From a bacterium (GTDB lineage Bacteria > Elusimicrobiota > Elusimicrobia > UBA1565 > UBA9628), in the NCBI GenBank assembly GCA_021806745.1, contig JAJZQS010000023.1:1-32539 (forward strand): a stretch of DNA of 32,539 nucleotides. Direction: 5' to 3'. The notes under the pieces are model-generated. The model was not told the origin of the DNA. It did not search any database and was given only the letters and a program-made list of their open reading frames with translations. Both the position numbers and the translations under genes were made by a program. Below, piece after piece: positions 2,115 to 26,403 of the stretch; position 1 is the stretch's first letter; each line of letters begins with the position of its first letter.

Positions 2115-2990
2115 TCAAGGGTCGGAGGGCCCGGAGCCGGGCTTGCCGCCCACGAGGACCTGGAAATCGCCGCGTACTCTCAGCGCCTCGAAGTCGTCGT
2201 CGTCGCGCGCGCGCGCGCGCAGCGACGCGTCCAGGCGGATGGCGGCGGCCAGCTCCGCCATTGCCGGGGCGATGCGGCCGGTCAGGGTCATCACCGCGGC
2301 GTTCTCATAGCGCGCGATGGGCAGATCCGGCGCCAGGTCGGCGGCCGTCTGGGCCTCGGCGGAGGCGGCGTCGGTTTGTCCGTCCTCGAACAGCAGGCGG
2401 GCGTCCTCGGCGTGGGCGCGGGCGCGTTCGCGGCGCGCGTCCGGGTCGTAGACGCGCGTCAGCAGAAAGCGCAGGCGCGGGCCCTTCGAGCTCCGGGCGT
2501 AGACGACGACCGCGCAGGTCGACAGCGGGTTGAAGTTCACCGCGGCCAGGCGCCAACCCGGGCCCGGCCAGCCGCGGGTCAGTCGAGAGCGCAGCGACGA
2601 GGTCGAAAGAAGCACCGGCGCGGTCTCCGGCGCGGGATTTTCGGGGACGGTCTCGGCGTAGCCGGGGCGAGACCAGCCGGCCTCGCCCAGGTCTTTTTCC
2701 GTCTGCGCGGCGACTTTGGGGTCCCAACTGAACGCGCCGTCGAGCTGGAGATTCCAGTCGGTCTTGGAATCCTCGCGTCCCGGCGGTATCGTCATCGTGC
2801 CGATGTTTGTCTCCACGGGCTCGGCCTGGAGTCCCTGGCCGAGCTTCGGGAAGTATTCGACTTCAAGCGCCGCAGAGCAGGCGTCGTTCCAGCCCAGCAC
2901 GCGCCATTGCGCGCGCGCGATCGCGGCGTCTTCGACGGCGGACGCGGGCGCGACGCACGGAAAGACGGCGGCCAGCAGCAAGGCGAGCAC
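2115..2990 (-). CDS. Secreted protein of unknown function with C-terminal TPR-like helices
   Basis: In-frame part of ORF 2115..3254; signal-like sequence IVLALLLAAVFPCVAPASA; GTG start at 2990 preceded by TATAAT 6 nt upstream. Confidence 0.75.
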   Translation of the reverse strand: MLALLLAAVFPCVAPASAVEDAAIARAQWRVLGWNDACSAALEVEYFPKLGQGLQAEPVETNIGTMTIPPGREDSKTDWNLQLDGAFSWDPKVAAQTEKDLGEAGWSRPGYAETVPENPAPETAPVLLSTSSLRSRLTRGWPGPGWRLAAVNFNPLSTCAVVVYARSSKGPRLRFLLTRVYDPDARRERARAHAEDARLLFEDGQTDAASAEAQTAADLAPDLPIARYENAAVMTLTGRIAPAMAELAAAIRLDASLRARARDDDDFEALRVRGDFQVLVGGKPGSGPSDP

Positions 2991-3023
2991 GATGCGATTA
3001 TAGGATTCCGGCGGCGCCGAAAC

Positions 3024-3052
3024 TTGACAGAAAAAAAGCCGCGTGATAGGAT
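3024..3052 (+). promoter_or_regulatory. Sigma70-type promoter: TTGACA (3024-3029), 17 bp spacer, TAGGAT (3047-3052)
   Basis: Exact -35 consensus, ideal spacer, near-consensus -10, immediately upstream of the riboswitch aptamer. Confidence 0.85.
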
Positions 3053-3055
3053 TGC

Positions 3056-3198
3056 GCCGACAGCCTAAGCCGCCCGCCCTTCCTGGCGCGCGGCGCGGGG
3101 GACCCGGACTCCCTGGAGACAGGGACGGGGCGAACGAGGGCGGGCGACCGTCCGAGAGGCCACTTCCAAGGCCTAGCCCGTCAGCTAACCTCGTCGGC
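3056..3198 (+). ncRNA. Cyclic-di-AMP riboswitch (ydaO/yuaA family)
   Basis: Family-diagnostic blocks in order: CCTAAG, GCGGGGGACCC, GGGGCGAAC, CCGTCAGCTAACCTCGTCGGC; terminal P1 GCCGAC (3056-3061) pairs with GTCGGC (3193-3198). Confidence 0.9.
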
Positions 3199-3277
3199 AT
3201 TTGGGAGGGTGATGTTCGGCCCGCGCGTCTTGCGCGGCGCAGGAAATCCCCCACTTCGTGCCCCTGGGGGGTGCTGC

Positions 3278-4750
3278 ATGCCTGCGTCTCGCGTCGCCGT
3301 CCTGCTGAGCTTCGTTTTTGCCGCGGCCGTTTGCGCGCGCGCGCAATCGTCTCCGGAATCCTCCGACGCGGCCCTGCGTCGGCAGGTGCAGGACTTGCAA
3401 AAGCGCCTGGAGCAACTGGAAAAGGAAGTCGGCGCGGCGGGCGGCGCGGCAGTGCCGTCGACCGCGACGGTTGCCGCGCCGGCGGTTGCGCAGCCCTTCG
3501 ACTTCGCCGACTTCACCTGGCTCAACGGCAACAGCCGCACGCACGACTCGCCGCTGGACACGAAATACTTCACGCCCGAGATCCGCGTGGACGCCAACTA
3601 CGTCTACGACTTCAACCACCCGAAGGACCACACGCTCGACGGTTCCTGCGAGACCGGCCGCACCAACGAGCTGCAAATTCAGCAGCTCGGACTCGGGGGC
3701 GATTTCCACTACGACAACGTGCGCGCGCGCTTCATGACGCAATTCGGCGAGTACTCGCAGATGACCCCGCGCAACGACGCCAGTCCTTCGCGCGGCCAAT
3801 GGAATCTGAACAACGCTTATCAGTACATCTCCGAGGCCTACGGCGGCTACCACTTCGACGTGCTCAATCAATACGGCGTCAATGTCGACGCGGGCATATT
3901 CATGTCCTACATCGGCCTGTTCAGCTACTACAACGCCGACAACTGGGCCTACCAGCCTTCCTATGTCTCGGCCAACACCCCGTGGTTCTTCAACGGCGTG
4001 CGCATCCAGACCTTCCCGACCGACCGCTGGAAATCCGAGTTCTGGCTGATCAACGGCTGGCAGTCCTACGGCATGTTCAACGAGCAGCCGGGCGTGGGCA
4101 CCGAGCAATTGTGGCGTCCGACCGGTTGGCTGGAGCTCATCTCCAACGACTACATGGGCGCGGACACGCCCGGAAACCCGGCGCGCCAGCGCTACCACAG
4201 CGACAACAGCGCGGAGGTCAAGTACCTCGACCGTCCGAAGAGCTTCATCGACAAGGCCGCCTTCTCGCTCACCTTCGACGCGGGCTGCGAGAACGGCGGC
4301 GGCGTCAAGTGCTTCTCAAGCGCGCCCGGCGCGCCGCAGCAGGACTTCCTCGGTTTCATGTTCTACGACCGGACTTGGTTCGCGCGCGACAAGTACGCGC
4401 TGACGCTCGGCGGCGGCGCGATCACCAATCCCGGCCGCTATCTCGTCTTGCTGCCGCCGGTCAATGGCGCGACGGCGGCCTCCGGCACGCCGTATTTCAC
4501 CGAGAACCCGGGCGACCAGTTCAAGGCGTGGGACATGTCGGCCACTTTCGACATTCTGCAAAACGATTATCTCACCTGGCGCCTGGAGTTCGACCACCGC
4601 GCGGCCGACGTGCCCTATTTCGCCGGACCCGGAGGGATGACGCCGCCGGGCGGAAACAACGGCAACCCCGGCGCCGTCGTGGCAGGCTGGGCTCCGGACT
4701 TGGTCAAGGCGGAAAACCGCATCAATGTCGCGATGCTGATCAAATTGTGA
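3278..4750 (+). CDS. Outer-membrane beta-barrel porin (OmpL-like / putative beta-barrel porin-2 type)
   Basis: ORF 3209..4750; ATG at 3278 gives signal peptide MPASRVAVLLSFVFAAAVCARAQ, a short coiled coil (LRRQVQDLQKRLEQLEKEV) and alternating aromatic barrel strands; G-rich SD at 3266-3271. Confidence 0.85.
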   Translation: MPASRVAVLLSFVFAAAVCARAQSSPESSDAALRRQVQDLQKRLEQLEKEVGAAGGAAVPSTATVAAPAVAQPFDFADFTWLNGNSRTHDSPLDTKYFTPEIRVDANYVYDFNHPKDHTLDGSCETGRTNELQIQQLGLGGDFHYDNVRARFMTQFGEYSQMTPRNDASPSRGQWNLNNAYQYISEAYGGYHFDVLNQYGVNVDAGIFMSYIGLFSYYNADNWAYQPSYVSANTPWFFNGVRIQTFPTDRWKSEFWLINGWQSYGMFNEQPGVGTEQLWRPTGWLELISNDYMGADTPGNPARQRYHSDNSAEVKYLDRPKSFIDKAAFSLTFDAGCENGGGVKCFSSAPGAPQQDFLGFMFYDRTWFARDKYALTLGGGAITNPGRYLVLLPPVNGATAASGTPYFTENPGDQFKAWDMSATFDILQNDYLTWRLEFDHRAADVPYFAGPGGMTPPGGNNGNPGAVVAGWAPDLVKAENRINVAMLIKL

Positions 4751-4797
4751 CGGATCATCGCGCGGTCGGGCCGGTGCGAGGCGGATGCGGGATGGCG

Positions 4798-5955
4798 CTA
4801 GAACGAGTAGCGCAAACTCGCCTTGAGCGTCGTCCAATAATTTAGCGTGGCCATGTCCATGTTTTCCGACGCGGCCAATTTCGGCAAGCCGGCCGCTTCG
4901 ATCAAAAGCTCCCAATTTTTATACGACAGACCCGGGCCAGCCTCCCACGCGAAGCCGGTCCCGGTGACGGAATAGTTCGCCACGCGCAACGCGCCGACGG
5001 GCAGGACTCCCAATTGCTGACAAAGCGATGACGGCGAATTGCAGTAGAGTTGGTCCGTTTCCTGCTGCCAGCCTTGCGCTACGCCCGCTCCCGCATGGAA
5101 ATGGAGCGCGAGGTTCTCCCGAATCTCCCAGTGTGCCTGCCCTTCGAAAAGAAACCGGAGGTACGAAACGCTGCCGCTCGTGTTGTCGCCGAAGCTGGCT
5201 CCGCTCGTTCCGGGAGAAAACGTCTCGGCGTATTGCGGACCGGAAATGTAGCTGAGGCTCCCTCCCCAATCCACGATGTCGGACGCCGGACGAAGATATC
5301 CGGCCGTCAATCCCCAGCCGCCCGTGGCGGAATAACTCGCGGCGGACCCTGCCGGCAGCGAGTTGACGGTCGATTGTGTTCCAGCGCGAATTCCGGTCGC
5401 GGCGTTGCCGATGCTGTAGTAATCCACCGCTAGGAACCATTGCCCTGCGTGCGGCGTCAAACCGGCATCGGTCGCGGGGTAAGCATGATCCTGCCAAGTC
5501 GGCGGCGCGGAAGCCGCCGGTCGAGCGTACACGGTTGCCGATGCTTCGGCGGGCTCGGGGTTGTTTGCGGCGGCTGCAGATGCCGAAAAAGAGAAGGCAT
5601 CGGAGTCGTCTTTCGCGGGCTGCTGCGACGGCGAGGGGGGAGGCGCGTCGGAATATCTCGCGGGAGCGGCCGGAGAATCCTTGGGATTGGCGGGCCAGGG
5701 GCCCGCAACAACCTTGCGTATGTGGCTCCAACGCACGAAAAACAGTCCGCGATCCCGCGCTCGGAAGCGCAGGCCGAGCGCGCCTGAGCTGATGACGGTG
5801 GCTTGGAGCGCCGTGCCTTCCGGTATCGGCGTACCGGAGCCCATGATGACGGTGACGTTTTGACCATTCGTTAGCTGCATGGGTTGAGCCCACGACCGAG
5901 CGCAGTTTAGTGCGAGTGCAAAGAATACCGCCCGGATTAGCCAACGGTTGCTCAT
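4798..5955 (-). CDS. Exported protein: N-terminal small beta-barrel (LSm/SH3-like) domain, Ala/Pro linker, C-terminal outer-membrane beta-barrel
   Basis: 385 aa ORF; signal peptide; QLTNGQNVTVIM...ATVISSGALGLRFRARDRGLFFVRWSHIRKV; C-terminal amphipathic strand ending LRYSF; SD GGGGGGAG upstream. Confidence 0.8.
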   Translation of the reverse strand: MSNRWLIRAVFFALALNCARSWAQPMQLTNGQNVTVIMGSGTPIPEGTALQATVISSGALGLRFRARDRGLFFVRWSHIRKVVAGPWPANPKDSPAAPARYSDAPPPSPSQQPAKDDSDAFSFSASAAAANNPEPAEASATVYARPAASAPPTWQDHAYPATDAGLTPHAGQWFLAVDYYSIGNAATGIRAGTQSTVNSLPAGSAASYSATGGWGLTAGYLRPASDIVDWGGSLSYISGPQYAETFSPGTSGASFGDNTSGSVSYLRFLFEGQAHWEIRENLALHFHAGAGVAQGWQQETDQLYCNSPSSLCQQLGVLPVGALRVANYSVTGTGFAWEAGPGLSYKNWELLIEAAGLPKLAASENMDMATLNYWTTLKASLRYSF

Positions 5956-6493: not shown

Positions 6494-8125
6494 ATGAGCA
6501 ACCATCCCGACGCCGGAAGGGCGCCGACGGCCGCGCAGCTTGTCGATGTCCCGAAGCTGATTGCGGACTATTTCGATCTTAGGCCCGATCCGGCCGTCAC
6601 CGCCCAGCGCGTGGCCTTCGGCACCTCCGGGCACCGGGGCTCGGCGTTTTCGCGTTCCTTCAACGAGGCGCACATCCTCGCCGTCGCCGAGGCGATCTGC
6701 CGCTACCGAAAAAAAGAAGGCACGGACGGGCCGTTGTTCTTGGCGCAAGACACCCACGCGCTCTCCCGGCCGGCGCACGACACCGCGCTGGAGGTGTTGG
6801 CCGCGCACGGCGTGGAGGTCCGCGTCGCCGCGGACGGCGGCTATACGCCCACGCCCGCGCTGTCCCACGCGATTTTGGCCTACAACCGCGGGCGCAAGAC
6901 TGGTTTGGCCGACGGCATCGTGGTCACGCCCTCTCACAACCCGCCCGAGGACGGAGGCTTCAAGTACAACCCGGTCAACGGCGGACCTGCCGACGCGGAC
7001 GCGACGAAGTGGATCGAGGCCGAGGCCAACCGCCTGCTTGAAGGCGGCCTTAAGGAGGTGCGGCGCGTTTCCATCGAGAAGGCGCGCCGCGCCGCCAAGC
7101 CGCACGATTACCTGAGCGAATATGTGGATGACCTCGGCGCGGCGATCGATTTCGCGCCGATCGCGTCCTCGGGCCTCGAACTGGCGGTCGATCCTCTGGG
7201 GGGGGCGGGGGTCGCGTATTGGCCGCGCATCGCCGCGCGCTGGAAGCTCCCGTTGAAAGTCCTGAACTCGACGGTGGACCCCACCTTCCGGTTCATGTCA
7301 CTGGACTGGGACGGCAAGATACGCATGGACTGCTCGTCGCGCCACGCGATGGCGGGATTGGTGGCGCTCAAGGACCGCTACGATCTCGTGCTGGCCTGCG
7401 ACACCGACCATGACCGGCACGGGATCGTCGCCCGCGGGGCGGGCCTGCTCAACCCCAACCATTATCTCGCGGTCGCCGTTTCGTATTTGTTCCATCGACG
7501 CAAGGACTGGCCCGCGCGCGCGGGCGTGGGCAAGACGATGGTGTCGAGCTCCATGATCGACCGCGTGGCCGCGGAGCTTGGACGACGGCTCTACCAAGTT
7601 CCCGTCGGCTTCAAGTGGTTCGTGCCGGGACTTCTCGACGGCTCGCTCGGCTTCGGGGGCGAGGAGAGCGCGGGCGCGTCGTTTCTGCGCCGCGACGGCG
7701 GCGTCTGGACCACCGACAAGGACGGCATCCTCCTGGCGCTGCTCGCCGCCGAGATGACCGCGCGCGAGGGGAAAAACCCGGGCGAGCTTTATCGAGATTT
7801 AACCGCGCGCCACGGAGATCCGGTCTATGAACGCGTGGACGCGCCAGCCTCGGCGCAGCTTAAGGCGGCGTTGCTCAAGCTTTCCCCGGATCGGCTTGCG
7901 GCCGATACGCTTGCCGGCGAGCCGATCACGGCCAAGCTCGTGAAAGCGCCCGGCAACGGCGCGGCGCTGGGCGGTCTCAAGGTCGAGACCGCCGGCGGCT
8001 GGTTCGCGGCGCGGCCCTCAGGCACGGAGAGCGTCTACAAGATTTACGCGGAGAGTTTCCGCGGCGAGTCGCACCTGCGCCTCATCCAGGCCGAGGCGCG
8101 CGCGCTCGTGGCGGGCTTGGTCTAA
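6494..8125 (+). CDS. pgm: Phosphoglucomutase, alpha-D-glucose phosphate-specific
   Basis: 543 aa; FGTSGHRG, catalytic serine loop TPSHNPPEDGGFKYNP, metal loop CDTDHDRHG, GFGGEESAG, RPSGTE. Confidence 0.95.
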   Translation: MSNHPDAGRAPTAAQLVDVPKLIADYFDLRPDPAVTAQRVAFGTSGHRGSAFSRSFNEAHILAVAEAICRYRKKEGTDGPLFLAQDTHALSRPAHDTALEVLAAHGVEVRVAADGGYTPTPALSHAILAYNRGRKTGLADGIVVTPSHNPPEDGGFKYNPVNGGPADADATKWIEAEANRLLEGGLKEVRRVSIEKARRAAKPHDYLSEYVDDLGAAIDFAPIASSGLELAVDPLGGAGVAYWPRIAARWKLPLKVLNSTVDPTFRFMSLDWDGKIRMDCSSRHAMAGLVALKDRYDLVLACDTDHDRHGIVARGAGLLNPNHYLAVAVSYLFHRRKDWPARAGVGKTMVSSSMIDRVAAELGRRLYQVPVGFKWFVPGLLDGSLGFGGEESAGASFLRRDGGVWTTDKDGILLALLAAEMTAREGKNPGELYRDLTARHGDPVYERVDAPASAQLKAALLKLSPDRLAADTLAGEPITAKLVKAPGNGAALGGLKVETAGGWFAARPSGTESVYKIYAESFRGESHLRLIQAEARALVAGLV

Positions 8126-26020: not shown

Positions 26021-26044
26021 CGCGGCGCGTCCGCCAAAGGGTTC

Positions 26045-26396
26045 AGGGACGGCCTGTACCCCGGATTCTGTCCCGGCCCTCGCGGGCCATCGGGGACCAT
26101 TTCTCTGATGCGGCCACCGGGCGACCGTCCCGGGCGTCAAGCCCGGGCGCGCGAGCCGCGCGTCTTCGCCCACTGCCTTGCTCCCGACGGGGTTTGGCTG
26201 TGCCGCGTCCCTCGCGGTCCGCGCGGTGGGCTCTTACCCCACCTTTTCACCCTTGCCCTCGCGGGCGGTGATTTTCTGTGCCACTGTCCGTCGACGGGGG
26301 ATTTGGCCCCCGCCTCCCCGCCTTTCGACGGGCGTCGCGCTCGACGGAGTCCGGAAGTTCCTCCCGCCTTTCGGCGAGCGGCCCCCCGGCCGTCCC
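26045..26396 (-). ncRNA. rnpB: RNase P RNA (bacterial class A)
   Basis: Reverse complement shows GGGAGGAACTTCCGGACTCC, GGTGAAAAGGTGGGGTAAGAGCCCACC, CAGAGAAATGG, GGGACAGAATCCGGGGTACAGGCCGTCCC; 5' and 3' ends pair. Ends approximate. Confidence 0.95.
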
Positions 26397-26403
26397 TGAA
26401 ATC

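Follow-up and report, generated by a model that had tools for sequence, protein, structure and literature searches.

A putative c-di-AMP riboswitch ahead of a potassium-linked outer-membrane porin in Elusimicrobiota

Work on c-di-AMP has been centred on one-membrane bacteria and on its control of inner-membrane K+ channels and pumps, and c-di-AMP riboswitches are known ahead of KimA-type transporters. Two-membrane bacteria must also pass K+ through the outer membrane, a step usually treated as unregulated diffusion. Can this outer step come under c-di-AMP control as well? The question is raised by a stretch of 32,539 nucleotides (hereafter the window) from a metagenome-assembled genome of the phylum Elusimicrobiota, for which a preliminary description, made from the letters alone, had placed a c-di-AMP riboswitch ahead of the gene for an outer-membrane porin and proposed this as a distinct output. 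A c-di-AMP riboswitch before a porin was not found reported in the literature searched, which did not extend to the two founding accounts of ydaO-associated genes (Nelson 2013, Block 2010). Comparing the window species with two sister species of the same genus, G195 and G201, we arrive with a probability of roughly 70% at a c-di-AMP riboswitch that controls the porin of a K+-uptake regulon and turns it OFF at translation, a reading in which we infer the binding of the ligand, the OFF direction, the translational mechanism and K+ as the solute.

The ydaO/yuaA aptamer of the preliminary description, given there as 3056-3198, is borne out by the Rfam covariance model: cmscan matched RF00379 at positions 3052-3214 of the forward strand with 47.9 bits (E 2.5e-8; gathering score 38 bits) over model positions 1-134, which is its full length, and this is the sole match across the 2.78 Mb assembly. 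Counting the 3′ strand of the pseudoknot, 3063-3207 is the better span for the aptamer. It comprises P1 (3063-3065/3196-3198), P2 (3069-3073/3090-3094) and a core helix (3095-3100/3189-3194), with further pairing at 3128-3130/3177-3179 and 3158-3161/3170-3173. A pseudoknot joining a hairpin loop to the 3′ tail is a feature of published structures of this class, and here a 5′ strand CUUCCAA (3163-3169) pairs over 7 bp with UUGGGAG (3201-3207), located directly after P1. In the alignment the core strand GUCAGCUAACCUCG of RF00379 is conserved, and helices P1 and core are present. Among 10 Elusimicrobiota sequences from two families, the named structure including the pseudoknot is paired in 96.4% of cells, compared with 36-57% when the partners are slid; the pseudoknot by itself reaches 94.3%, with changes of the wobble type only. 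Changes on both sides of a pair are seen in 13 cells against 5.7 in shuffles, and are borne by three pairs only. From these pairing statistics it is very likely that the RNA is under selection as a structure, and a chance match to the model is ruled out by the E-value and the conservation. The junction before CCCG reads UAG where the consensus has GAA, and the score passes regardless; most members of the same aptamer subclass carry CAG or UAG at this place. By its score, core strand and pseudoknot, the window RNA is classified as a member of RF00379, with a diverged junction common to its subclass.

A diadenylate cyclase was sought in the window genome, and one is present (L002 1309-2190, reverse strand; DAC domain, E 3.4e-33), with the CdaA_N membrane part of the CdaA type, scoring 165 for TIGR00159, below the cut-off of 189. 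Beside it lies a DHH-DHHA1 gene, whose product could be a c-di-AMP hydrolase. Cyclases were found in all 16 genomes scanned, including 14 of the 16 that carry the riboswitch. Their motif in the window's family is RHA, RHS or RHT, with RHA in the cyclase of the window genome, compared with the usual RHR in other families of the phylum (L002; L172-L178). Genomes with cyclases of the RHA, RHS or RHT type retain c-di-AMP riboswitches. The changed junction and the changed cyclase motif could both be taken to mean that the ligand of the aptamer is some other nucleotide, such as a linear or a mixed dinucleotide, with the porin responding to a different signal. We consider this very unlikely, as the same aptamer subclass lies in front of KimA in three genomes (G192, G230 and G233) and, in family f8, of related APC transporters, fitting a normal c-di-AMP regulon, and as GUCAGCUAACCUCG and the pseudoknot are intact.

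What follows the riboswitch elsewhere points to the same regulon. RF00379 riboswitches occur in 16 of the 342 genomes of the phylum, mostly before K+ transporters or related APC transporters. Besides the three species with the porin, the outputs in the remaining 13 genomes are KimA-type transporters (6), related APC transporters (5), one TrkH and one CitMHS-type permease, some of them identified by a conserved N-terminal motif only. The porin is the only output in the phylum located at the outer membrane. In aptamer subclass, phylum and family it resembles the KimA riboswitches of G192, G230 and G233, but KimA is an inner-membrane K+ importer, whereas the product in the window is an outer-membrane porin. 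As a separate observation, an nhaA-I RNA (RF03057) in G227 immediately precedes the gene of a KimA-type K+ transporter (L159 2960-3011, reverse strand, the same as L150 6302-6353), and a second one, at L160 (3845-3892), points away from kimA.

The downstream gene runs on the forward strand from the ATG at 3278 to the stop at 4750 and encodes a BBP2/OmpL-like porin of 490 aa with 16 predicted strands. Its product matches PF07642 (BBP2) with E 9.9e-43 and 147.1 bits, against a cut-off of 26.2, and by visual inspection it starts with the signal peptide MPASRVAVLLSFVFAAAVCARA-Q. The AlphaFold model shows an N-terminal coiled-coil-like helix and 16 strands at moderate confidence (mean pLDDT 70.8), and Foldseek matched it to solved porins such as OprP, OprO, Omp32 and OmpF; no match to solved structures was found by sequence. 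On this modelling the product is an outer-membrane beta barrel with a signal peptide, which agrees with the beta-barrel porin first described. An earlier start at 3209/3212 (GTG ATG) was rejected: it is in frame in the window species and G195, but G201 has no in-frame start upstream of the porin ATG, and the signal peptide starts at 3278.

This porin keeps company with potassium genes. Four of the six closest Elusimicrobiota homologues outside the window (in G195, G215, G192 and G227) adjoin kdpA, which follows the porin; that of G207 (L147) is flanked by kimA on one side and by a kdpD-type kinase with kdpE on the other, and that of G201 has the riboswitch only, with no kdpA neighbour. A more distant BBP2 gene in G196 is placed as in G207, with Pfam support for the kinase and the regulator. 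Across 80 porin loci of the genome collection, kdpA, kdpB or kdpC lies within the fetched flanks at 30, one of the KdpC matches spanning only 37 residues, and a K+-system gene of any kind (KdpD, KimA and Kup included) at 38. In several phyla the family is syntenic with kdpABC, and in other cases with kimA or kup, or with kimA plus kdpDE. Many homologues in the same 80 loci, mainly from Bacteroidota and there mainly from Mucilaginibacter, have no K+ gene nearby. Such homologues, and a fold that resembles general and anion porins alike, are what could be expected if the porin were a general diffusion pore and its link reflected general osmotic adaptation and not K+ itself; this is possible but rather unlikely, given that every close Elusimicrobiota homologue is tied to K+ genes or to an RF00379 riboswitch. 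Judged from gene neighbourhoods, the BBP2 family is K+-linked in the Elusimicrobiota lineage, not universally. In Gemmatimonadota, Acidobacteriota and Bacteroidota, the porins that neighbour kdpABC share the family and the K+ neighbourhood with the window porin, but many of them have KdpD-type sensors instead of the riboswitch: an Rfam scan of 26 porin loci from outside Elusimicrobiota gave no match to RF00379, and the aptamer core motif is absent from the 80 loci except L030 and L031, which belong to G195 and G201. Pairing of the riboswitch with the porin in other phyla is ruled out to the extent of these 26 and 80 loci, respectively.

Within the genus, the riboswitch lies directly 5′ of the porin in all three species, so that the arrangement noticed in the window holds beyond it, and the promoter named in the preliminary description holds with it. 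This sigma-70-like promoter on the forward strand (3024-3052) consists of TTGACA (3024-3029), a spacer of 17 nucleotides and TAGGAT (3047-3052), with TG before the -10 element; it is the only such site in 2900-5000, where 0.3 are expected, and is nearly invariant in the window species and both sisters. It predicts a transcription start near 3059, about 4 bases 5′ of P1 (3063). From the -35 element to the ATG, the leader is about 94% identical between the window and each sister, and the porins of G195 and G201 share 73-75% of their protein residues and 63-65% of third codon positions with that of the window.

In G195, the riboswitch is followed in order by the porin, a kdpF-like peptide, kdpA, kdpB, kdpC, pgm, kdpD and a degenerate kdpB-like gene. 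Its KdpB carries the phosphorylation motif DKTGT, and its KdpD is a KdpD-USP-EIIA protein without a kinase, best matching the "KdpD-like non-kinase potassium sensor" below the cut-off. In Bacillus thuringiensis, a c-di-AMP riboswitch of this class switches kdpFABC off when c-di-AMP is high, and among the riboswitch-kdp species surveyed KdpD was truncated and non-kinase in 12 of 12, an arrangement that seemed restricted to Bacillales (PMC6488665). The Elusimicrobiota locus resembles this case in having the same RNA class before a K+-uptake unit, which in G195 holds kdpFABC and a non-kinase KdpD. It differs in belonging to a two-membrane phylum, in having the porin as first gene (and alone in the window species), and in that no terminator was seen and a hairpin over the Shine-Dalgarno (SD) region suggests translational control. 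What had been proposed as a distinct output should therefore be divided: the riboswitch before an outer-membrane porin is real, but its separation from the K+/osmolyte regulon is unsupported, since porins of this family occur in synteny with kdpABC, kimA or kup and the G195 riboswitch heads porin-kdpFABC. From this synteny and this operon, the output is best taken to be the passage of K+ through the outer membrane during uptake, and the arrangement as one that would extend the known c-di-AMP/K+ regulon to the outer membrane rather than add a separate regulon.

Two genes of the sister clusters may be recorded in more detail. The G195 KdpD, a KdpD-USP-PTS_EIIA fusion without histidine kinase (L146 17680-19317), adjoins pgm in the riboswitch-porin-kdp cluster. 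The KdpD of Staphylococcus aureus binds c-di-AMP through a SXS-X20-FTAXY motif in its USP domain (PMC4686210); this motif is absent from the G195 KdpD, which was accordingly rejected as a second c-di-AMP sensor of the known binding type. A KdpB-like P-type ATPase without DKTGT occurs in the same cluster of both G201 and G195 (L145 11143-12867; L146 19322 onward; L186) and is, to judge by the missing motif, probably a non-pumping relative.

Is the riboswitch then still at work where kdp is missing? In genome searches (assembly of the window species 93.6% complete), kdpA and kdpD were found in neither the window species nor G201, TrkH and Kup in none of the three species, and canonical KimA in neither the window species nor G195, with only a 32% relative in G201. 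A kdpFABC unit 3′ of the riboswitch, present in G195, was not detected in the window genome, where kdpA was not found. The gene after the porin there lies on the opposite strand, which leaves the porin as the sole evident target of the riboswitch. Further downstream, pgm (6494-8125, forward strand; TIGR01132, 854 bits) is conserved, following the porin in G201 and porin-kdpFABC in G195, and the pre-pgm sequence CATGCGATAAC is conserved as well. The end of the porin and the pre-pgm sequence are common to the window species, G201 and G195, with kdpFABC in between in G195; sequence shared on either side of the kdp genes fits a loss of kdp in the window species and G201, a gain in G195 being the alternative. 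A riboswitch that once controlled a porin-kdpFABC unit could have been left over with little present function, as the missing kdpA and kdpD and the shared flanks would allow. We regard this as very improbable: the leader is far better conserved than the porins behind it, and none of its elements, from the promoter through the aptamer and pseudoknot to the SD hairpin, is broken, which together indicate continuing selection.

A candidate K+ importer of the window organism, by its relatives, is an EIIA-APC transporter. The APC transporter is common to the three species and has about 60% identity to the APC transporters located behind c-di-AMP riboswitches of family f8; in the window species it lies behind a PTS_EIIA_2 gene (L182 4220-6731, reverse strand, contig C34) with no riboswitch of its own, and in G005 (L013) such a PTS_EIIA_2-APC pair is preceded by a c-di-AMP riboswitch. 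That c-di-AMP sets the K+ permeability of the outer membrane by way of an RNA switch acting on a porin dedicated to K+, persisting where no kdp operon is found, is a tentative proposal to which we give slightly less than an even chance.

How would the switch act? An anti-SD arm AUCCCCCA (3246-3253, forward strand) pairs with the SD region UGGGGGGUG (3265-3273), the 3′ arm of the hairpin. The duplex UGGGGGGUG/AUCCCCCA amounts to about -12 kcal/mol in the window species and G195; the hairpin is conserved in all three species, kept via wobble pairing in G201, where another fold scores better. By sequence, UCCCCC of the anti-SD arm also has a complement within the aptamer core, GGGGGA (3097-3102), a candidate switching partner for which duplex energies were computed as well. 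No terminator was found on the forward strand in 2900-5000, the interval from aptamer to gene included, and a mechanism by intrinsic termination was rejected. From the conserved hairpin over the SD and the lack of a terminator in this range, we infer a switch of the OFF type that works at translation. Whole-leader thermodynamic folding of this GC-rich leader is ambiguous and differs among the three species, so that a single minimum-energy switching model was discarded, and it is the conserved complementarity that carries the switching model. That whole-leader energies single out no state, and that in G201 the aptamer strand CCUC offers the SD another partner, would suit a c-di-AMP that turns the porin ON, or a control via transcription (by Rho or an unrecognised terminator). 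Either is unlikely in view of the absence of a terminator-like site in 2900-5000, the conserved anti-SD hairpin and the well-studied kdp case, which is an OFF switch (PMC6488665).

With translational OFF control as the preferred reading, transcription would start near 3059. At low c-di-AMP, that is at low K+, the aptamer would be unlocked and GGGGGA would pair with UCCCCC upstream of the SD, leaving the ribosome site open, and the porin would be made and K+ would cross the outer membrane. At high c-di-AMP, with enough K+, the aptamer and pseudoknot would form, UCCCCC would pair with the SD and porin translation would fall. In G195 the corresponding leader also heads kdpFABC; in the window species, where kdp was not detected, the porin would be the sole target and would probably supply a different importer, the EIIA-APC transporter being one candidate. 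Potassium entry is thus probably adjusted at both membranes of the cell, the outer and the inner. A riboswitch on a kdp-syntenic porin would show K+ entry to be regulated at the outer membrane, the G195 arrangement would place the riboswitch-kdp unit outside Bacillales, and the BBP2 porins, a large and uncharacterised family, gain a suggested function.

Two other features of the window may be added. A 385-aa ORF at 4798-5955 on the reverse strand, without a Pfam match, lies between the porin and pgm and is not at this place in G195 or G201, and a class A RNase P RNA was identified by Rfam at 26041-26397 on the reverse strand with 143.4 bits.
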